Positions 1,040-52,840 of a stretch of DNA of 64,000 nt are shown in pieces. The stretch is from Diphasiastrum complanatum. Its lineage: Eukaryota > Streptophyta > Lycopodiopsida > Lycopodiales > Lycopodiaceae. The notes below the pieces were generated by a model. The model saw only the letters and a program-made list of their open reading frames with translations, did not search any database and was not told the origin of the DNA. A program made the translations under genes and the position numbers. The DNA lies in the NCBI GenBank assembly GCA_029204225.1, contig CM055103.1:54967054-55031053 (forward strand), given 5' to 3'. Within the stretch, counting starts at the first letter, position 1; each line of letters starts with the position of its first letter.

Positions 1040-1245
1040 GATGTGAAATATAGTAGCCTACTAGACAGCAACATTCTTTTATGTTTTGGTTCATGTTTGA
1101 TCAAGATCTATTAGAATTTGCATCTCATTCTTAGTGCTGATTTTTCTACATTGGCAAGATTTGTGAATTATTGTCTTTCTAACCTAAGGTCATCTTATGG
1201 ATTTAGATCTTAATTGGTCTGAAATTCTTCACACTTGATGTCCTC
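1040..1245 (+). repeat. Dispersed repeat shared with 24590-24770
   Basis: Both stretches contain TCATGTTTGATCAAGATCTA, then CTACATTGGCAAGAT, then a diverged TTATGGATT..GATCTT block in the same order and orientation. At 24.6 kb the shared DNA starts just after the end of a copia LTR, so it may be retrotransposon leader DNA or a common insertion flank. Confidence 0.65.
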
Positions 1246-3600
1246 TTCCTTATGGTATACTCAGTTTCATATTTCGATGTATTGACTAAAAGTTATAGCT
1301 AATCATGATGGTGAATGACAATATAAGTAACCAATTTAGATTAAACGATGGGCAGGACAGGAAATACAAAATGTTGTCGGATAGTCTTCTCTCGCCATGT
1401 TATCTCTCTCTAAAGTCAAATGTGCTTAAAGGGCCCATTTTGAGCCCATATTTTCCCTAATGAGAAAATATGGGCTCAAAATGTCAAGGGAGTATCATGA
1501 AACATAGATGAAATTGAAAAACTGTTTGGAGAAATAACGTACTAAAGAAATGGATTGAAATGTTATAGAGTTATTTGAGTGACCTTACAAATAATAATGA
1601 TAAGATGAAAGTTGCATTTCAATCCATGTGAATCTCAGATTTGTGTCTAGTTGAAGATATGGACTTGCTAAATAAGAAGACAAAGAGTAATCAAAGAAGA
1701 TTCTTGCCAACAAAGAATATTTGTGAGCTTTCATCAAGAGGAGGTCACTGAAAAAGAAGAATCAGTGCATTCAAGTAAGTGTTAACATTACTATTTGTCC
1801 TTAATGTTGTTTGAATTTTTTTTCTTTCATAAAATCTTGAGTTATGTCATATATCTATGTAAACTTCCTAGGAGGACTTTTAGCATTGTGCTAAAATGAA
1901 TAAAGTGTTTGCACAAATTGTGTGTTGTCTTGCGAAGCAATGAGAATCAAACACGTAGAAAGGCACATTGGTTTTGGATAAGAATTGGCCATCTAATTTC
2001 TTCCAAATATTTGTTATCAATGCCTCTTTGGTAATGGCCCAAGTCCATTTGATTCAGTTCCTTATAATAGGTGCCTTTGGATTAGAGTGTCTTTATTTAA
2101 GATTCATTTTTTAAGTCCATATGTTTGATAGTAAATAGAACTTATATAGTTGTCTTTCGATAATTCATATTCGAATGTCTGCTTCCTTAAATATTTCTTC
2201 ATTATATGGCTTTTACATTCAATATGCATCTTCGACAGGTAGGTTCAAATGCATTGTTATTTGCAAATAGGTTATTACAATTACTTACACCTAAATACGA
2301 GGGTCAAGTGAACCATTCTACATGAGGTCTATTATATTTTGAGTTGAGCGAACAAAGTGCATGTTGACCATGTTCTAATTTTGCTTTGTTTGTCTTTTTT
2401 CAACTACGGTCCATCCTCTATTATTGAGGCTTTGAGTTTGTACCCTTTTAGCTAGCGTTCATGTGTTTAGCCCAAATCGCTATTAACTCTCGGAAGTACC
2501 AACCTTTATTCTAAGGGTCCATCCTCGATCGAATGAAGCTGAAGCATGAAGCTTGGGCATTGAATTTGTAGCCTATTTTCTGCCAACATCAACTCGGGTC
2601 ATCATCAACTTGGAGCATCTTCTAGTTTACATTTTTATGATAAACAGTATATGGCAAATTATGCCAATTTATTGGTCCCTAAAATGGCGCCAAAAAGTTC
2701 GCATATGTCATAGCATGCTGAACTCAAAAAGAGTGAGAAATGTAGTATGAAGGGTTAGCGTTCCCACAAAGAGCAGCACCGAGAGATAATTTGCCATTGT
2801 TGATGGTAAAATTTGTGAGAAATTGGCAAAAATCTAGCTTGGTATTTTTTATGATAGAAGTTTGTAAGTGAATCTCACATGTGTGGAGGATGTTCCCACA
2901 CGTGGAGAATTGTAAAGTAAATCAAAATGTTTGATATAGGGGTCTCATAGAATTTCATAGTCAAGCATTTAGGTGTAGGATGTTGATAGGGTCAAATTTG
3001 GCATAGATGGCAAATTATCCATTTCCAATTGTAATGCCACTATTGAGCCAAAATAGAGTAGGAGGCCAAACTTGTTCCAATTAGAGTGTAGACAAGTGTA
3101 ATGCTTTTGTTTGATGAAGTTTAAGAGGTCCAATAGGTTTTAGAGGTGGAACCATGTGTGGTCCAATAGGAATTTGAGGTGTGCTTGAATATAGTCCAAT
3201 AGAATTTAGAGGTGCATGGATCAATGGTCCAATAGGATTAAGAGGTGGCAAATTGTGATCCAACCATAGTTAAGCATAGTGGTATCTCATGAATCTACTA
3301 GTATCATTGTACTCCTCATTTTGGATCTAATTGATTTTGAGATTGAGTGGATTTTGAGTGTCATTGAATTTCTAGCTTTCTCTCTCTACCCGAGAGCTCA
3401 TGATGGTTTTTTCTCTCTCTACCTGAGGAGAGCAGCTTGTTTTTACTTAGAATACTTTTGGAACACTTCCCACACGTGTTAGTGAGAGTTGGAAGTGATT
3501 GAATGCATGTAGTAGTGTGTTTTTGCCATAGAATCAAAGATAGATCTTGAATCTCAATCTAGTCTTGATCTTGGTGCATCTACACACCTTAGGAGATCAC
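1246..3600. other. Non-coding DNA with no recognisable gene
   Basis: About 2.3 kb of AT-rich DNA with frequent stops in all frames. The only structure recognised is the perfect hairpin at 1436-1483. The last part, just before 3641, is probably LTR sequence because a primer-binding site follows directly. Confidence 0.5.
1436..1483. repeat. Perfect 20-bp hairpin with 8-nt loop
   Basis: The arm CATTTTGAGCCCATATTTTC at 1436-1455 is exactly complementary to 1464-1483. Eight bases (CCTAATGA) separate the arms. Such perfection suggests a recent palindromic insertion or a tiny fold-back element. No coding context is visible. Confidence 0.9.
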
Positions 3601-4327: not shown

Positions 4328-4362
4328 GCATTAGAGGAGTTCTCAATATCAAAAAGACCCTT
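4328..4362 (+). repeat. Left terminal inverted repeat
   Basis: GCATTAGAGGAG followed later by AAAAAGACCCTT. It pairs with 10032-10066 in inverted orientation. The twelve outermost bases are identical, and there are seven mismatches in 35. A TATA-like TCTATAAATAG just outside (4309-4319) may belong to the LTR into which the element inserted. Confidence 0.8.
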
Positions 4363-4815
4363 TAAGAAATGCTAGGTAGGATATACAAAAATATCAAAAT
4401 AAAAAAAATAATATTGTTTATTTCTTGCCCCCACCACTCCCGAGACCTCCCCAACTCCCAAACAGTGTCTATATTCACAATTAAGAACTGTAAACAGTTT
4501 GCAGTATAGCTTGACTAAATTCAAAAATATTCCCTCCATTGGTTACGAAAAGGGCAATATTTTCACTAGAGCTAGAATATGACCGCCATCCCCAAATTCG
4601 AATTAGGAAAAATAGCAAAATGTTTACATATGCATTCCTTCCACGAGAATGGAAATATGGGTGCCATCTCTAATTATGAATGACATCATCACATTGGAAT
4701 GGAAAAGCGCCAACTACCTATTGGAATGAAAAAATGAGCGGCATTTCCAAATTTGAATCAAGCATACAAGCATGGAGATTGGATTGATTGTACAGAGTAT
4801 ATAATATAGTCAAAG

Positions 4816-7800
4816 ATGAGTATTATGTTTTGCTTCATAGAATCTGGTCATAGTACTTTGATGCAACTGATTACTCTATTGTTTTTTCTGATAATGACAT
4901 TGTATCATCTACATGTGGATATCCCTATTGATTTGGCACCTTTGCAGAGAAGAGGATGCAAAGGAATTCAAATATCTGTTGAGGATCGTTCTCATTACAG
5001 GGCAGAAGGAAAGAAAAACTTGGAATTGTGGATAGATGGAACATTATATCCACAAGATCCATGCACTTTTACACATTCCACATTCTCCTCAATAACTCAT
5101 TTAGTTACATGGATATGCAATGGGCATAGTGGATTACTAGGATATTGTGAAAGATTGCAGAACCATGGAAAATAACTTTATATGAATAAAGTTTTTAGAA
5201 GGTGAGTTAATTCGAATATCCTCTTACTGTCAGAATAGAGATTGTCATCTCCAAAAGACATTAGAAGAAAATCAATTTTACAATCTATTCGTATTGAAAA
5301 CTTACAATTACGGATGTGGAATTGGCAAAGAAGAAGATTGAAAGTAAGAAACGAAAGCGACAAAGTTTCAAGGATATTCAAATGCTTTTAAAAGGAGTTT
5401 ATCGAAATAGAAGGATCTGTGTATTCAAGTAAGCATATTCTGATTGTTGTAGGTTTTTCAATGACATTTGGATTTGATTTTAGCTATGGTGATATTCTGT
5501 TAACTATCTGTTTTTTTTGCAGATCTGAATTAGTAGCCCCACGGAATATTAAAGACAATGCTTTACTAGGAATGCCATTGGGCACAATATTGACAGGCGT
5601 ATCATGATGCACAATAGGAGTTCAAATGTAAAGTGTAAAATAACAAAGTCTTTGATGGTGGACATTCAAAAAAATTTAGATAAGACTATAGTTCAAGGTG
5701 CTTGTGATTTTGCAAGTATTAGCAGGGAAGCATATGCAACAATATTTAAACTAATTAGAGAAGCTTTTAAACAAGTTCAAACTAGATAAGTCCGAATCCC
5801 TAGGACATATCACTTGAAGAAAGAGAGAGATACATTAAACATAAGTATGCATAAGATCACTGGAACTCCATTTCATATTGAGGTGTATGAAACTAATGGA
5901 AGATCGATATTCTACAATCCATCAAACAACTTATTTGTTGATCTAAATCACTTGCTGAGATACATCGTCACATTCTATTATATAACCTTTGAAAAGGTGA
6001 ATGGCAAAATAATCATAGTACTTAAGTTAGATGAGTCAGAAATTGTGAAAGGGAAGAAGATGGAGAGGGTTAGTATAACTCTCATGAATGGTGCATTATC
6101 ACAAACAGAGGACCAAGAAGATTTTAGATTCAGTGTCCAGTCAGAAAATGATATATGGTGGTTGGCAGCGTTTCAAGTTACTAGCCTCATTATTACATTA
6201 CATTAAATAAATAGTATTAATTCTTTGTTAACTAAGTCTGATTAATTCTTTGGATAGGTGTTGAAGGAGGATCATGATATAGTATCATGGATATTCTCAA
6301 GGACATCTTATCCTAGGATCATCAAGGACCATATGGATGGAGGACTTCTCAATGTTCCAGGAGTTGGAGACTTCAATGTAGAATGGCACTTGGCAGGTGA
6401 TTTGAAAACATTGAAATGTATATATAATGTCTCTCACGGTGCTACATCAAAACACCCTTGTTTGTACTGCATGAAAATGACAAAAGATTTAACTAGGAGC
6501 ACATGAATCACTAAAGAATATGCAGATCAAAACTGGAAGCTTGTACTGCTGCCTATCCCCTTGAAAAATGTGCATGTTTGCACTCTTCATGCAGAAGTTA
6601 AATTAATAGAAAAGATCATTTATCTTCATATAGTTTTTGCTTGTAATACTAAGCCAACATTACTAGCAAATGAATCTATCTCTCGATTAGAAAATGTTTT
6701 ATCAAAAGCGGGACTTCATAACAGACATGTCAAAATTCAAAAAGATGAAAAGCTTTCAGAAAAGAATGGGAACATGCCCACTAATCCAAGCATAGGAGGA
6801 TCAAAAGCACGTCGTTTCCTATCAAATCATACTGGTAAGGCTTCTAATCTTCAACACTCAGTCTGGAAATATATTACTGCTGCCATTCAGGACTTCGAGC
6901 AAGATGGCAAAACCAGAGTACTAAAAGCTAATGTATGGAAGAAACTTGATAGTATGATTGTTATTTTAAGAAAAGATAAATACTCTGATATTGATAAGAA
7001 AGTTGTCCAAAGGACTTGTGTCGAGTTTGTTAATGCAGTATCAAAAGCATGGGGAGAAGATCACATCACTGTATAGATTCTTCAAGATGCTTTCAATTTT
7101 CCATGTATATTTAGATCCAAACATAAGACTAACATTATGGTTTTGACATATGCAGCACATTCTAAGTAACTACTATCCAATAAGTTGTTGGTGCTCAGTA
7201 ACTTTTTGCTTCAGGCCTTCAAGGAGAATAAGACATTGTCACAGTGTCTGACTAGTGGATTCACACCAGCAACAAAATACATGCTCATCCCTTATCATAC
7301 TAAGTAAGATATGTTAAATGCTTCTTGTTGTTTAATGCTTTATCATTGGCATTATCAATGGAAATAGTTCTTATAATTGTAGCTAATGGAATATCTATCT
7401 TATTTTGCAATGACCACTGGAGTTTAAACCTAATCTCTATTAAGAGATCTATAGATAATAATGTTAAAGCCAAGATGAACTCGGCTAGCAATACGCATAA
7501 GGATGTAGATATATATTTGCCATATTTAAGTAAATATATTCCAACAGATGTTCCCCATTCCGTGGACTGGCAGATCGTTAATTTGGAAGTAAATTCTGTC
7601 TTTCTTAACAATATTTTGAAATCAGTATCCTAATGTATTTGTTTCATTCTAATTCATTCTATTTCATTATTGATTTTTTGTGTGCTGAATTTTTTTGCAG
7701 TCACCCCAGCAAAATGATTCATTCAGCTGTGGGTGGTACACATTATATAATGCAAAGTTTTTTTTTGAGTGGTTGAACCTTCAGGAAGGTGTTGATATTT

Positions 7801-8044
7801 CAAAGGTTATTAATTCCGTTTATTTTAATTTTTGGAATCATGATTAGTTTTTTATTTTCTTGATGTTTTTAGCCACATACATGAATGTTCTATGTTGTAG
7901 TTTACACTTCCGGAGTACACATCAAGCCAGGTGTACAAATTTAGACAAGAATTTATCCTGAGCATATTGGCTAGGGCAAGGCTTCAGCCTCCTATTGTTG
8001 ATGATGGTGCAAAGGATGATGTAATTATACTACATAAAGATTAG
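4816..8044 (+). pseudogene. Transposase-like gene with C-terminal Ulp1-like peptidase
   Basis: A multi-exon gene. Probable introns with GT-AG ends are 5429-5522, 6177-6257, about 7166-7214, 7304-7382, 7625-7700 and 7806-7900. The middle part (5604-7073) is one frame broken only by in-frame stops at 5787, 6504 and 7074. It contains KLDESEI and EWHLAGDLKTLKC..GATSKHPCLYC, reminiscent of an uncharacterised RNase H-like transposase type with a conserved G-D-x-K and C-x-x-C block. That likeness is from memory and unverified. The C-terminal exons (7383-8044) form an unbroken frame with DHWSL, an NSAS block where the family has a YDS-type Asp, and PQQNDSFSCGWYTL. This is the His/Asp/Gln/Cys layout of Ulp1/SENP (C48) peptidases. 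There is a frameshift near 5604 and a phase mismatch at the 7303/7383 junction. The gene converges on the unknown gene at 8384-9669. Confidence 0.6.
7383..8044 (+). CDS. Ulp1/SENP-like cysteine peptidase module (three exons)
   Basis: Exons 7383-7624, 7701-7805 and 7901-8044 join in phase 0 at both introns and stay open to a TAG stop. This is the best-preserved part of the transposon gene. Catalytic features seen: His in NDHWSLNLIS, oxyanion Gln in SPQQND, and nucleophile Cys in FSCGWYTL. The catalytic Asp appears as Asn in NSAS if aligned to the usual DS motif. The short preceding exon 7215-7303 carries KYMLIPYH, matching the beta-strand that precedes HW in the family. Ulp1-like domains are known partners of several plant transposase families, but their role in transposition is not established. 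A diverged or inactive peptidase is possible. Confidence 0.6.
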
Positions 8045-8383
8045 AACAATACAAATAGCATAGAACAGAAATAGATTACACATGTATAGAATTCATAGAA
8101 AAATATACATTGATATATCAAATGCTGCTCCATTTTATGAATTTGGGAGCACAAAATATATGTACTGATGCCCAACTTGGGCTTTCATTTATTGAATGAA
8201 AGAGTCTATACACACATTTTTACTAAACTTTATTTGAAGCTATTGTTTTTCCGCAATGGTGATTGTTGTAAGTAGATCTTTGCAGCACGTTATCAGCTCC
8301 TGTCTTTTTCGCATTTGTGACATGACAAATATTGGTGAATGTTCAATTGCAAATGATGCCATTTTTAGCTATTTTGTTCTATT
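8045..8383. other. Spacer between convergent transposon genes
   Basis: AT-rich 340 bp holding the 3' ends of the two convergent genes. No further feature is seen. Confidence 0.5.
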
Positions 8384-9669
8384 TTAAAATGGCAATAAAC
8401 ACAAAATACTTATGAGTTTTCCGTTGATGATAAATCTGAAATATGTTTGTAGATTGGTTTGTAATAGCATGAGCTCTGTTCTGATAAAATCAAGCTTCCA
8501 ATGATCTTTCACCTCAACCACAGTCAAATATTTCTCATTGTAGATAATGCTTATCTCCATTCGGTTTGTGTGACCATTTAGTTCAAAGTCTTGATCTAGT
8601 GGTAGCCATGTACCTTCAATTTTTTTGTATCTCTGATAACTAAATGTGAGACTGAGCATTTGCTTTTCGATATGATAACGAAAGATCGTTGAAGACTTTT
8701 TAATCCTGCATTCTATGTCATTATTTTTTTTACTATCCCAGCCTTGATCCATGAGATCTGACAAAGTCTCATATGATAAATCCTTGCAAACAAATAAAGT
8801 TGGTGTCCTACGAACACTAGCACTCGAGAAAAAATCAACAAATATATGTATTGAGATAAACCAACTTAGGTGAACAATTTTTGAGCCAGTGCTTATCTTC
8901 ATAGCATTTCTAATATCAATGAGTAGCTTGCATCTCAAGGATTCAGAAACAATACTATCAGGAGTAGGCCACTCACTTTGAAAACTAGGCAATGAAATTG
9001 CTTTGAGCTTGCCAAAACCTCCATCTATATGTGGCGTATATAAAGATTCATAAAAATAATTTCCACAATATGCAAGTTCCTTTGGACTTCTTCCTCTGTA
9101 TTGCAGCTTTCCAACATCAGAGTGAATTACATCCAATATTCCTGCAAGTGATTGTGCTGGCTCCCATTCACTTATGCATGATGGATATAAATTTGAAAGA
9201 AAAAAACAAAGTTGAGGCATTTAAATCATAATTTGAAGAGCATAAATTAAAAAAATCACATATGATTGTTGTAGAGTGCATATGTTTTGATATACTTACA
9301 ATTATATTTTTGATGATCATGAGGATTGATATCATGTACTTTGATTTCTGAATGCATATATACATGTTGTACTGATATCGATGGACCTCTCGGGGTAGTC
9401 TTAAACTCCAAATTTTTTGCTTTCCAATAAGATTTGTATGTCATTTTTGCTCTTTTTTTTTGTCGAAAATTGCCCTTTGATGATGGATGCAGCAATACCC
9501 ATGAATTCTTCGTATATCTTGTTGGCTTCCAGTTATTAGCTTCATCTTTCTCATTGTAAAGAATCATAGACTCGACTGTAGATTTGGGTATCCTTGCCAT
9601 TGCTATTTTCAAAGCTTGGGCCCCAAAAATCTCTCTGATATGATACTTAATTTCAATTTTTTGTATCAC
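8384..9669 (-). CDS. Unrecognised protein, second gene of the TIR transposon
   Basis: Two minus-strand open stretches, 9256-9669 (138 codons) and 8384-9220 (279 codons), are separated by a probable intron. The first ends at KYNCK over a GTAAGT donor. The acceptor near 9180 is unsure. Together they would encode roughly 390 residues. No known domain was recognised. Visible features: a basic patch (SKGNFRQKKRAK) around residue 65, a conserved HVYMHSEI block, SEWEPAQSLAGILDVIHS, DLSYETLSDLMDQGW, and a C-terminal VVEVKDHWKLDFIRTE. A diverged second copy at 47515-48010 keeps the same order of motifs and the same donor position, so this is a real gene family. It could be an accessory transposition protein or captured host sequence. 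The function is unknown. Confidence 0.6.
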
Positions 9670-10031
9670 ATTTAATCTAATGTGAATGCCAACATAGTCA
9701 CAGTATTGTGTATACCATATTTTATGTAACTGTATATACTGTATTTATATAACTGTAACTAGTATAGTTAGCAAATTTCATTATACTAACCAGCATAGTC
9801 AAGTAAATTTAACTTGAGGTATTGACGTCGGGCAGATAAGCACGTGTCAGGCAAGAAAAAGAAACCAATGGGATAAGTCCATGCTGCTCGGACACAAATT
9901 TCAAAGTTTTCTATATTGTATTTTTATTTCTCAGTTCATATGAACTACGTTACGTAGATTTCAAATCTGTGCATTTTGATTGGGCCTGGTGACGGTCGAA
10001 ACTAAAGAAAAAAAATAAAAGTATCTTTACC

Positions 10032-10066
10032 AAGGGTCTTTTTTTATTTTGGAGCTCCTCTAATGC
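10032..10066 (-). repeat. Right terminal inverted repeat
   Basis: Inverted partner of 4328-4362, ending CTCCTCTAATGC. It lies about 360 bp upstream of the first long frame of the minus-strand gene, so it may also contain that gene's promoter side. Confidence 0.8.
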
Positions 10067-26160: not shown

Positions 26161-26560
26161 AGGATTCAACACAATCTCGTGATGTGATGCATAATGAGGA
26201 ATAACAGTACAGATGATCAATACAGTACTATACTTGGCCAAAAAAAAAGGTCAAAATGATAGTTTTCTTGTAGAATAGAAAATTTGGACAAGAGCTGGAC
26301 TTTTCTGGTGTAACAGAATTCGTAGACAGGACTAGATGACAAGATGATGAATCAGAATGCAGTACTTGCAAATTCTGATAGGGACTTTATACTGTGAAAA
26401 TACTGAAGTTTCTTATATTTTTTGGAATTTTTTCAAAGGATGGAATTTGTGGAGGGTGTATAAGAATGTTTCAGACTATGGACGATTTCATAGTTTTTTT
26501 GGAATGAAAGTTTTGCTGATAGATAAGAGAAATAGTGAAAATATGCTTTTCTATCAGTCT
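26161..26560. other. Spacer between Ty3 gag and CACTA remnants
   Basis: About 400 bp of AT-rich DNA. The 69-codon frame 26357-26566 has no recognisable domain. Confidence 0.4.
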
Positions 26561-28800
26561 ATTTGAATTTCCAATCAATAAATACTAAATAAAAAAATGC
26601 ACTAAGTACATGTAAATTCCTGACAATGATTGATAGTTTGTATATGGTCTCACAAATATCTTTTGACAAGCACCCATGAATTGACAATGGAAAGATGAAT
26701 TGAATCATCTTTAGCCAATCATGAGATTTGAGACCTTGCAACTTTCCATCCACTCTGAATGATGACTGTAGAGAATGGGCAAAACCAGTTGGTGTTCTAA
26801 TGTCATGAATAATGGAGCGCACATGGTTAAGCTCCTCCTTAGTGAATGTCCAAGATGGTACTTTTGGAGCATGATCTTCACCATCCTTTATCCAATACTC
26901 CTTTTTGGTGTTTGATTCTTTTAGATCGTGCCTTGCAGCAATGGCATCTTTTTCACCAATCAAGTGTTTCCAAATAGACTCACCCACATTTCTAAATATG
27001 TGCAGGGGATTAAGTAGGTGACTTATCAAAAGGTTATTCCAATATTCCAAACGATGAAATATAGATAATCTTTTCATACCATCGATTGGCTTTGCTTGAG
27101 ATTCCTCCCATAGTTTTCACCAATCTTTCACGAACATCCTCTTTGGAGGCATCTCTCTCTCAACTCTTCCTCCAAAACCTCTTCTATGAGTGTCTCTGAA
27201 TGGATGGCCTTCATGCAAGTATTTACAATGATTATCATAAACCACTTTTTTGAAATGTAAGAGTATCTTCCCACAAGATTTGGCCCACACCAAAAACAAG
27301 CATTTTTTCCAGCCGTTTGAAAGCCTGCCCAACAAATGGATCACTATTAAAAAAAGTATATGTCAAAGAATAATTATAGCCATTGTAGTATATCATGTAC
27401 ATGTCAAGTATTACTAGTTGTATGTAACTATAAACAAACTCCTATGTACACAAGACAGACATTGTTTGAATGATTACATGAGCATTCACCTAATCCTGGA
27501 TAGTCCTGCATTGTCCACATTACAATGGCATGTAGTGTAAACTCTCTCTCATGTAAGGGGCGCGAAATGTCATATGCTTTTATCCCCTTCCACAAATCTT
27601 CCAACTCGTCAATAAGCAGCTCAAGTTACACATCCATGTTCTTAACCTTGCGTTGGTCAGGAATTAAAAGTGCCAACATAATGTGTCTCTTTTTTGTACT
27701 CAACCAAGGAGGAATATTATAATTTACCAAGCAAACATGCCAAATGGACCACGTAGTTGCTCGTACATCAAAAGGGTTCACACCATCTGTTGCAAGACCA
27801 AATCTCACATTTCTTGACTCATTGGCAAAGCTTGGATACTCTTTGTTGATGTGTTTCCATGCAAGGGAATATGAAGGTACCCTCATCATCCCATCCGTAG
27901 AGGTATGGTGTGCATGCCAATCCATAAGTTGTGCAAGAGGTTTACAATGAAATAAATGTTGCAATTGTGGAATTACTGGAAAATGTCGTAAAACTTTGCA
28001 CGAAATGGTTGTCCCTTGCAAATCATCTCTATATCGAGGAGTATCACAAATGGGACATTTCTCGAGTGATTTGTACCTTTCTCAATATAAAATACAATCT
28101 TTTGGACATGCATGATATTGCTTGTAGTCCATCTCGATGTTAGAAAACATCTTTCATGCCTCATCTCTTGTCTCAAGCATGACATTCCCTTCTGGGAGAA
28201 TTTTGTTTTTCGATAGTCTGTACATGACAAAAGAAGTCATTGTAAAAAAATTATCACTCGATGTCCAAATTGTAAATTTTGTTTCAAAGCAAAAATAACA
28301 AGTAGATGAAAAAAAATTTACTCAAATGATTATGAGAGGCTTTGGTCACTCCATCTATATTTGGCTTGAAGATTTAATAGAAGTAGAGAAGTCACCAAAC
28401 GAGATGTCTTTGCTCCAGGATACAATGCGGTCTTTGATTCTTCTCGCAATTTCTTTTCTTCTTTAGACAAAAGTGCCACCTCATCTTGTTCATTGTGTCT
28501 AGCTGCACTTTTGTTCTTGTACATATCATCCAACATGTCTCCTATGACATCAAATTCATCATTCATTGGAAGCTCATTTTCATTGTTGGAACTTGTTTGC
28601 GATGAAGTAGATTTAGATGAGCTCGATTCAGATGCATTAGTCTCTTGATTAATGCGCTTATCAATTTCCATCATCTCTTTTAAGCCTTGACGTAGACGAC
28701 GAGGTAATTGCTTTATATGAGGACCGTTGTATTGCATTCGTCGTCTACGTCGACCATTACGAGGATTATTGTCTCCAACACTAAATGAGGATGAAGAATC
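26559..28800 (-). pseudogene. CACTA (En/Spm) TNP2-type transposase core
   Basis: From high to low coordinates: a Ser-rich spacer and LYPGAKTSRLVTSLLLLNL..WSDQS (28330-28737), typical of the start of Transposase_21. Then HACPKDCILY, KCPICDTPRYRDD, VLRHFPVIPQLQHLF, WHAHHTSTDGMMRVP, VRFGLATDGVNPFD, NIPPWLSTKKRHIMLALLIP and VFTLHAIVMWTMQDYPG (28130-27480), the TNP2 core. GWKKCLFLVWAKSCG follows near 27320. The DUF4218-like segment is 26559-27077 (WTFTKEELNHVRSIIHDIRT). Several stops, shifts and introns occur, and the gene breaks off near 26560. It is the transposase of a CACTA element; the N-terminal domain is at 31213-31430. Confidence 0.85.
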
Positions 28801-29197: not shown

Positions 29198-30211
29198 TTA
29201 TTGTCTTTTGCAAACATTTGGGTAGAGGACGGTTGAAACTATACTTGATGAACAACTCCTCTCCAAACCTGATAGATCTAGTGCCATTACATAAGTGCCC
29301 TTTACATTCCTAGTAAAATATTCTTCTTTTCCATTGGTGCGTTCTTCAAAATCACAATTCGTCAATAGAGGGTGGCCAATGGAACTATTTATATATGCAA
29401 CAATGTTTCCACGCACATCTGGACGTCCATCAATGTATGTACGATTTGCCCTTGAGATGTTGCCTCCTTGCATGCGTTGCTCCTCTAAAGAACAAGCATT
29501 TGAATTCAAGCCATATACTTGCATCCTCCATTGGTGATGACACAAAGCATGCCAATCACCCCAATTGTATTGAGGTCCTGCATATGGCATCAATGTCACA
29601 ACACTATTTAAAGGGACCTCTACACTACTCAATGCAAAAAGGCCCAAACCAGCCTCAGGAAAGTGTTCACTAGGCATGATCATGTACATTCGACCCCAAT
29701 ACGTAAATGGTGTTCCATTTAATGGTAATGGTGATTGGAGTGGCCAACACAAATATCTACTTCTAGTGAAATTTTTTACTAATGGTTGCAAGCTAGGTGG
29801 AAGAGGAAGGTCAGACAAAGGACCTAGAATGTCCTTTGACACATCAACAGTGCATAGTAATTTGCAATTATCTTTGAAACTAGTCATAATACACCCAAGA
29901 CGTGTTCTCTTTTTTAAAGGAGTGGTCAAGTTTGTGGAATCCACGTGGAGTATCGTGGAGGACTCATGTGCAACATCTAGGATAGGTGTGGTTGGGTGGT
30001 AAGAATGTTCTAGAGATTTGGAGACATGGATTGAATCACAAGGCATTGATGAACTAATGATATCATGCAGGGGGTCATCATCAACAAGAGCATCATCTAG
30101 GGCCAATGATAATCCAAAATCAATATTCATGTGATTTATCCTATCAATAATATTCTCGATCTCTCTTGTAACTCTTTTTCTTGAAACCAACTTATGTCCC
30201 TTCTTCTGCAA
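29198..30211 (-). pseudogene. SET-domain-like exon inside the CACTA transposase gene
   Basis: 337 open codons, entered from a clear 3' splice site (TTTTGCAG at about 30207). SET-like features: AGLGLFAL (residues 187-194), a PYAG segment (209-212), YIDGRPDVRGNI (259-270), AYINSS (272-277) corresponding to the RFINHS motif, and TNC (284-286). The last SET strand, FGEELFIKYSF, is present at 29235-29267 but one base out of frame, with the break near 29275. SET domains are mostly protein-lysine methyltransferases. Here the residues usually binding the methyl donor look altered (INSS for NHS). It lies between the N-terminal domain and the TNP2 core of the CACTA gene, same strand. It could be a captured host fragment or a resident ORF of this element type. 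Confidence 0.6.
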
Positions 30212-30230
30212 AAGTTGAAAATGTTAGATG

Positions 30231-47514: not shown

Positions 47515-48010
47515 TTTATATTGTAAAGTACCTATATTAGAATGTATGACATCAATTATTCCTACAATAGATTGAACTGATTGCCATTCAACGGAAGTTG
47601 ATGGATACAAATATGCAAAACCATCAAAAATATTGTGAGAAAAATTTAATATAAAGAAAATGCTAATACTAATGGAATTTAATCTAAATATATACATACT
47701 AATCGTATACTTACAATTGCATTTTCTTCTATCATTTGGATTCAAATCTTGAATGTTGAGCTCTTTGTGAAGATAAACATGATGAACTAAAACTTCCGTG
47801 ATAGATTGACCGACAGTTGATACTTTGAAATCCATTATCCTACCTTTCCAAGAACTTCTATATATGTTATTTGATCTTTTTATTTTCTGGAAAGAGCCTT
47901 TTGAATAAGGATGCATCAAAATCCATTGATATTTACAATATATTCTTGGTATCCATTGATCTTCTTGTAAGATTTCTGACCATTTAAACAAATTGTTCAA
48001 AGTAATGAGC
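47515..48010 (-). pseudogene. Second copy of the unrecognised transposon gene
   Basis: Minus-strand sequence is parallel to 9065-9580. WILMHPYSKGSFQKIKRSNN corresponds to WVLLHPSSKGNFRQKKRAKM; LVHHVYLHKELNIQDLNPND to VQHVYMHSEIKVHDINPHD; VEWQSVQSIVGIIDVIHSN to SEWEPAQSLAGILDVIHSD. Both have the GTAAGTAT donor at the same codon. It is cut at 47515 by the family E LTR and near 48010 by copia integrase sequence. The family function is unknown. Conservation of an intron site and of protein motifs despite DNA divergence argues for past selection. Confidence 0.7.
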
Positions 48011-51715: not shown

Positions 51716-52840
51716 CTCAAATACTCTGAATAGGCCGAAAACTTAAAGGCAAATCGTCTTCTCAGTATAGCAGTGTGAACGAGATGCCATTTCCTTTCAG
51801 TTTGAGAAGATATTAGGATATCACTGCTTTTGCTCTGTAAAGTATAACTATATGCTATTAAAAACTGTTTGGATCAACTCCTTGGCTAAGACTTTGAGAA
51901 CTATCGTAAGGGAAGAACTAGAAATTGGAGTTCGGAAGTAGCTTTCCAGCTCCCTGATAAGCTAGAACTATGTGAGTAGTGATCATAGGATAGCCGTCAG
52001 AGACGAAATTCAAGGTCCCAGAGATGTTAAGAAAGAAGTAAATATAGGGATGCCTGACGCCAGTATCAAAACGACTGCTTCTGCATCTTGAAGCCCGGTC
52101 AAATTAGAGGATGCGTCTTGGCCTTTGGCATGGCGGAAGATCTGTTGAATCTTACTAATCAAGCGTTTGGATGTGATGGGTTGAAGGAAATGGTGACTCC
52201 TGAGCCTTGAAAATGAAAATTGCTAGAAGCCTTAGAATGGTTATCTTGCGTGCTTTCTTGAAAGACCACATATCTGAATTCCTAAGCTTCTGGGTCAAAT
52301 TCAAATCGATGGAAGTTGGAACACAATACATCATACCATGCATGTAGATGGCCCCACCAGAACTGCTACAAAAGTCTTCTCTGGAATCTTTCAAAATTGA
52401 TCCTGATTCCACACCATTATCCTTAGTTCTGAAAGCTAAAAATGTGCGACTATCATGCTGCTACTGCTCTCAACTCCTCCTAGAATCAATCCAGGTGTAC
52501 AAAAGCAAAGCTGAAGAAACATTAAAATTTTTGTAAAGGAACATACCATAGTGCACTGCCTCTCTCTTTCCTGCTCCGTACACAAATTCCTCTAAGCCAT
52601 CAGTAATCTTTAAGTCCTTAAGCTAGCCAGCAATGTCATGGCATCGAGTATGTGAATGGATCACAACTGTACAGTAAAGATAATGAAGCTCTTGCCCATA
52701 AGCACTCTACTCCAAGAGTCCAATATGCTTGGAAATTTGTAACTACATGCAAAGATCACGGCTACAATAAACAGTCAACCGCACATCCAAGCATGTACAG
52801 GTTTTAAAAAGTTATCTGTACTCTTCTTGTCAAATGTGAT
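51716..52840. other. Upstream side of the DMP gene
   Basis: Probable promoter region of the minus-strand DMP gene in its first few hundred bases (GCATATAGTTATAC at about 51845 is TATA-like on that strand). The minus-strand frame 52155-52412 (SILKDSREDFCSSSGGAIYM) resembles no family I can name and is left uncalled. Confidence 0.4.

Follow-up and report, generated by a model that had tools for sequence, protein, structure and literature searches.

A histone H3 domain lies in one open reading frame with the start of a Ulp1 protease in copies of a DNA transposon from the lycopod Diphasiastrum complanatum, a shortened copy of which occupies positions 4328–10066 of the 64,000-nucleotide stretch analyzed here (the window; GenBank assembly GCA_029204225.1, contig CM055103.1, positions 54,967,054 to 55,031,053, forward strand). 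This fusion is the most remarkable component of the element and is missing from the window copy, and because H3 is absent there, it was invisible to the original prediction made from that copy. We read the interval as a decayed copy, shortened by an internal deletion, from a high-copy family of cut-and-paste transposons belonging to the CMCT/RAG1 clade, whose undeleted form of about 9.3 kb would contain four genes, one of them encoding a putative chromatin-targeted SUMO protease directed against silencing; the probability that we give to this explanation, taken jointly, is roughly 0.6. The evidence is drawn from sequence and comprises the ends of the element, its many copies, a gene order composed from overlapping copies, an apparently RAG1-like end of the transposase active site, and the presence of H3 with Ulp1 in two diverged families.

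The window copy retains a 3′ remnant of the H3-Ulp1 gene (7175–8020, plus strand), with Ulp1 exons at approximately 7176–7303, 7382–7591, 7701–7805, and 7901–8020. As predicted, the plus strand thus encodes an Ulp1-like domain: it matches PF02902 (Peptidase_C48; E 5.8e-8) and yeast Ulp1 (1euv; E 0.0017), and its NDHW and SCGW motifs align with the active-site His and Cys of the yeast Ulp1 triad, as in C48 proteases. When the window's own pieces were compared with Pfam, PHROGs, NCBIfam, and PDB, Ulp1 was the sole convincing match, weaker ones being taken as chance. Among viral contigs, prokaryote contigs, plasmids, and phages, no relatives were found, one match having an E-value of 8. The missing part was read in other copies. 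At locus L026, two overlapping frames of an extra segment match PF00125 (E 3e-13 and 4e-6) and encode an H3 histone fold, and the PDB chains nearest to the H3 domain are CENP-A Cnp1 and H3. Elsewhere in the genome, at loci L039 and L040, uninterrupted frames of 339 and 340 amino acids run from an H3 tail (MDRRKQTRRDFF) through the H3 fold and a linker to CLTSGFTxATKYLLIPYHTK, which is the Ulp1 start, with the same exon end as at about window position 7303 (Pfam Histone, E 1.5e-25 for L039 and 2.4e-24 for L040). The Ulp1 exons follow the H3 frame in L039, the exon with the active-site His containing a stop. A genome search with a 99-residue H3 query returned 5210 candidates, the best 150 of which were scored; these are 81–100% identical to the query, and each covers at least residues 3–98.

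The H3 domain is missing from the window copy owing to an internal deletion (junction at 7166–7175), which also removed a minus-strand gene that we call X. In other copies, the match stops at element base 2839 and picks up again at 2848, and extra sequence between or beyond these bases is shared by L014/L019, L015, L021, L024, L025, L026, and L027. Arithmetic on the coordinates of L025 and L026 puts the lost segment at about 3.6 kb and the undeleted element at about 9.3 kb, the latter being a composite estimate. Read in these other copies, the lost segment contains the remainder of the transposase, gene X, and the H3 domain joined to the Ulp1 start. When overlapping copies are combined, the order of the undeleted element is transposase (plus strand), gene X (minus), H3-Ulp1 gene (plus), and a second minus-strand gene, Y: L026 shows the left end, a mostly deleted transposase, then X, and then H3-Ulp1, and in L038, X is followed at a distance of about 5.9 kb by a broken H3, with Ulp1, gene Y, and then the right end after it. 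Because the copies hold an extra 3.6 kb or so at 7166/7175, the continuous transposase-Ulp1 gene of the original prediction turns out to be a product of the deletion, that is, two genes which are separate in longer copies. Of the two convergent genes that it described, both are present and both are decayed, but a two-gene layout cannot be kept as a family trait, as the longer copies combined show four genes. The expected pairing of transposase and minus-strand gene sequence in other copies was found in L018, L021, L025, and L037, which lie in other flanks.

The matching 35-bp inverted ends first noticed in the window copy were confirmed: the left terminal inverted repeat (TIR; 4328–4362, plus strand) and the right one (10032–10066, minus strand) are complementary at 28/35 positions, and their ungapped score of 21 was reached by 0/200 dinucleotide shuffles and by 1/180 real pairs of sequences from the window. 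The most likely start of the element is C4329, where the match begins (CATTAGAGG) in nine other, mutually distinct flanks (L014=L019, L015, L016, L017, L018, L021, L024, L025, and L027); in L013=L022 and L026 this C is preceded by a G, as in the window copy. On the evidence of the TIR match, the flank comparison, and the right end of L037, the element most likely ends at G10065. The termini of the family, from the flank comparison and L037, are 5′-CATTAGAGG..CCTCTAATG-3′, and thus present the 5′-CA..TG-3′ ends (CATTAG..CTAATG) of the CMCT clade, with exceptions on the left in L011 (TATTAG) and on the right in L038 (CTAATA).

Copies were searched for in the window's own 1.745-Gb assembly, a plant genome as its DUF679, CACTA, and copia sequences also indicate, and the counts obtained for the ends are lower bounds: the best 40 of 1226 left-end candidates were scored at 88–100% identity and the best 40 of 1580 right-end candidates at 94–100%. 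Twenty left-end loci (L009–L028) were taken for comparison, and the whole 5.7-kb element recurs in three of them (L009, L010, and L011) at 97.7–98.3%. The flanks of these three are the window copy's own, so they are duplicates of one insertion; its left flank is also common to L012 and L020, and nearly so to L023. L037 has both ends in flanks other than those of the window copy. With inverted ends, many copies, and several of them in other flanks, the claim of a TIR-bounded transposon is upheld. Copies with the window copy's flanks, 97–98% identical, also occur on contig C21 of G000 (at about 0.77–1.29 Mb and at 7.6 Mb), which suggests that the insertion lies within a larger carrier repeat or was copied by segmental duplication.

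On the plus strand of the window copy, exon-like blocks extend over 4948–8020, with a frameshift near 5600 and several in-frame stops. Those assigned to the transposase are an upstream exon (4948–5201; stop at 5173; inferred boundaries; no domain assigned), conserved in L014, L016, L018, L024, and others, and three blocks also conserved in copies: a basic block (KKKIESKKRKRQ; 5322–5429; 5′ boundary inferred), followed by a GT-AG intron; an exon with the likely first catalytic Asp in KLDESE (5523–6176; containing the frameshift and a stop at 5787); and an exon with the likely second Asp in AGDLK and a CxxC motif in HPCLYC (6258–7073; stop at 6504). The first codons of the final exon (HIL..) follow at 7156–7166, the remainder, with the H(4)H motif and the catalytic Glu, being deleted. 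It is by this C-terminal active site, absent from the window copy, that the transposase is grouped with the CMCT clade. In five other copies (L014, L021, L024, L025, and L027), an exon ending in HITHY(M/L) is followed by a likely GT-AG intron and then by HILRDHTTFFANTYGSLSVWSSQGMEKSH, with small variations and a stop in L024, and the final exon continues as HILRDH..SSQG(M/I)EKSH.

This continuation resembles RAG1. The joined reading of L027 aligns without gaps to RAG1 residues 929–965 (12/37 identical), with a score of 60 that none of 400 shuffles reached (mean 27, maximum 44), and both zinc His and the catalytic E962 of RAG1 are aligned within this 37-residue block. When the C-terminal stretch was used as query against 177,635 PDB sequences, RAG1 was the only match at E≤10 (E 0.73). 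KLDESE, AGDLK, and HPCLYC stand in RAG1 order, the first Cys lying 20 residues beyond the second Asp against 19 in RAG1, and HILRDH is followed by a Glu 20 residues past its second His. The order D, D, CxxC, HxxxxH, E and this 20-residue step are shared with RAG1/RAGL and Transib. A spacing pattern, set after the data had been seen, occurred in 813/20000 shuffles when it comprised D-D-CxxC, in 127 with LH added, and in 0 with the ARRFL block added as well. The transposase is therefore likely to belong to the CMCT/RAG1 clade, as judged from its C-terminal active-site motifs and the CA..TG ends. The suggestion of a little-described superfamily holds insofar as no Pfam model matched any of the transposase pieces tried, but not as regards its motifs, which group it with RAG1/Transib/CACTA (CMCT).

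The CMCT clade unites EnSpm/CACTA, Mirage, Chapaev, Transib, Plavaka, ESTA, and Lanisha, and in the cited sections of its description is characterized by a C(2)C motif and an H(3-4)H motif between the second D and E, 5′-CA..TG-3′ termini, and target-site duplications (TSDs) of 2–5 bp (PMC12730594). In our element, the second D is followed by C(2)C, H(3-4)H, and the final E, and the termini are CA..TG, but there is neither a CACTA Pfam match nor, in two old insertions, a TSD of 2–5 bp. As in RAG1L-RAG2L elements, several genes are present and some are convergent, but the ends (CATTAGAGG) differ from the CACTW of RAGL and the CACWATG types, no 5-bp TSD was seen in the two insertions, the partner genes are H3-Ulp1, X, and Y and not RAG2, and the whole-length likeness is not significant (PMC7204232, in the parts cited, for the RAG1L-RAG2L gene layout and the CACTW ends).

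The alternative that survives best is that we are dealing with an ordinary member of the CACTA-like Lanisha superfamily, the gene content of which has perhaps already been described; this is possible, though on balance unlikely. Lanisha was reportedly introduced in Repbase Reports in 2020 by Maumus, McDaniel, and Carey, who work on moss genomes. Its naming among the CMCT lineages favors this alternative, and Ulp1 is not mentioned in the main text of the paper that names it (PMC12730594). Among the matches listed in the open-licence literature, we found no precedent for a transposon encoding a histone-Ulp1 fusion. That the element represents a new RAG1/CMCT lineage making its own H3 variant, devoid of K9 and fused to a SUMO protease, can be put forward tentatively; the product would be a chromatin-docked deSUMOylase that protects the element's chromatin against silencing or steers insertion, and the transposon would thus encode an antisilencing histone.

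A less probable alternative is that H3 is a passive passenger acquired by transduplication, as in the H3-carrying hAT element of Dothideomycete fungi. Such capture exists (PMC6710886), and many of our copies are decayed. The fungal element is likewise a DNA transposon, of about 9.5 kb, with an H3-like sequence, but it has a hAT transposase, an 8-bp TSD, and a captured H3 for which the cited part of that paper mentions no protease fusion. In our element, H3 is in frame with Ulp1 and long open reading frames persist. Moreover, both are kept in a second, diverged family, whose H3 (MARAKQTSRT..) lies in an open frame of 209 amino acids and matches the Histone profile over nearly its whole length (E 4.4e-21); in the same frame, with two stops, come a linker and then Ulp1-like exons (35% amino acid identity), with a convergent gene Y fragment. 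Between the two families, H3 is only 40% identical over its first 99 residues, so the association of H3 with Ulp1 is old. Codon changes between the families number 42, 47, and 57 at positions 1, 2, and 3 in the first part of H3, a slight third-position excess that suits a passenger, and 27, 12, and 38 in the second part, where the excess is clear and speaks against one; constraint on H3, as far as codon changes reveal it, is thus clear only in the C-terminal part. Aligned to canonical H3, the H3 domains show 63/136 and 57/136 identities, and K9 is replaced by D or T in both families; the second family retains K4, as do L039 and L040 by eye, but L026 does not. Because K9 is missing from the tails aligned, the H3 part could not carry H3K9 methylation. 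The element of this second family is nested in the first-family copy at L018 (stored positions 1185–2551, plus strand, and 3232–3451, minus strand).

It is rather improbable that the element is a divergent CACTA/EnSpm transposon that has captured a ULP1 domain, like the CACTA-ULP elements reported in grapevine and rice. Such elements do occur in plants (PMC2528002, in the part cited), and ours shares its CA..TG ends and its arrangement of C(2)C and H(3-4)H with the CMCT clade, which includes CACTA. In the transposase, however, Transposase_21 (tnp2) gave no match at E≤10, when the window's own CACTA element, our positive control, matched at 3.8e-31; the termini are CATTA and not CACTA, so that neither defining trait of EnSpm/CACTA was found; and Ulp1 lies outside the transposase gene. 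Likeness to the open reading frame of the window's CACTA element is weak, being reached by 79/500 and 33/500 shuffles, and is not relied on. CACTA-ULP, MULE-ULP/KIU-VANDAL, and Ginger1 are also DNA transposons with an Ulp1 domain, but no histone fold is mentioned in the accounts of them cited here, whereas in our element Ulp1 is joined to H3 in a separate gene. Maize MuDR shares a convergent two-gene layout (PMC3440606, in the part cited) and differs in that our element has short TIRs and other partner genes; no MULE transposase domain was matched by Pfam in the window pieces, and a TSD of 8–11 bp was also not found. Finally, H3 matches are very numerous (best 150 of 5210 scored), but that H3-Ulp1 is an expanded host gene family merely lying near transposon fragments is very improbable, given the same neighbors in L018, L026, and L038 and the 3′ part of the gene inside the window element and L009–L011.

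Several points weigh against the CMCT/RAG1-clade transposon with an H3-Ulp1 protease. The genome search for ends recovered copies in other flanks, as had been foreseen, but neither the window copy nor L037 showed a TSD at its CATTAG/CTAATG ends; these are the only two distinct insertions in which the left and the right end were both present, and since both are old, the CMCT assignment is provisional. The last transposase exon was joined across an inferred intron, the PDB E-value of 0.73 for RAG1 is not significant alone, and a whole-length alignment of the transposase with RAG1 did not rise above shuffles. RAG1 was chosen for the C-terminal comparison on prior suspicion, the clade resting on the motifs and the C-terminal block. 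AlphaFold models were discarded, their pLDDT (predicted local distance difference test) values being 32.5 for the transposase core and 42.8 for gene Y exon 1. Among the loci compared, no single copy has all parts; many of the best 150 of 5210 H3 matches have one or more stops, many being stop-free; and in the second family, a 67-residue Ulp1-like exon alone had no Pfam match.

The two remaining genes lie on the minus strand. Gene Y consists of exon 1 (WVLLHPSSKGNF..KYNCKY; 9292–9678), with a GTAAGT donor, and exon 2 (8384–9205), a 278-residue open frame conserved in copies and assigned to no known family, the boundaries of both being inferred. A gene Y fragment of a diverged relative element lies at 47515–48003 (minus strand; tblastn, 40% amino acid identity over 99 residues, E 2.6e-25, and 59%, E 1e-8). 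Over 130 aligned codons, the gene Y copies differ 46, 38, and 64 times at positions 1, 2, and 3, and the nonsynonymous rate (dN 0.42) is below the synonymous one (dS 1.31), so gene Y has evolved under some constraint. Gene X corresponds to the minus-strand frames between the transposase and H3-Ulp1 (2964–1478 in L026); pieces of it are conserved in L014, L015, L019, L021, L024, L025, L027, and L038, and its frames had no convincing match in Pfam. A 38% relative of gene X, at 1800–2089 of L028, a locus chosen for its left end, points to another possible diverged family. A plus-gene match at window position 52005 (26 residues, E 0.002) was taken as chance. Elsewhere in the window, a decayed CACTA/EnSpm tnp2 gene occupies 26559–28800 (minus strand), its Transposase_21 match quoted above lying on 27626–28081, and beside it a 341-residue frame (29198–30223, minus strand) has an end that looks SET-like by eye (YIDGRPDVRGNIVAYINSS), with no Pfam match at E≤0.1.

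These observations are compatible with a scenario in which a RAG1-type transposase with a D-D-CxxC-HxxxxH-E core would excise and insert the element through its TIRs by cut-and-paste, and in which the H3 part would provide the SUMO protease with a chromatin address, through nucleosome deposition or binding of H3 chaperones. Close to the element, the protease may then strip silencing or repair factors of their SUMO, so that the element could escape repression, and an H3 without K9 would itself be unable to receive K9 methylation. Ulp1 domains recur across several transposon superfamilies and, in the literature cited here, have no settled role. A conserved histone-SUMO protease fusion would name chromatin as the likely site of action and make the role of transposon SUMO proteases directly testable. 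If true, a selfish element would itself encode a component of the nucleosome, and its transposase would add a plant-genome lineage to the clade from which RAG1 arose.

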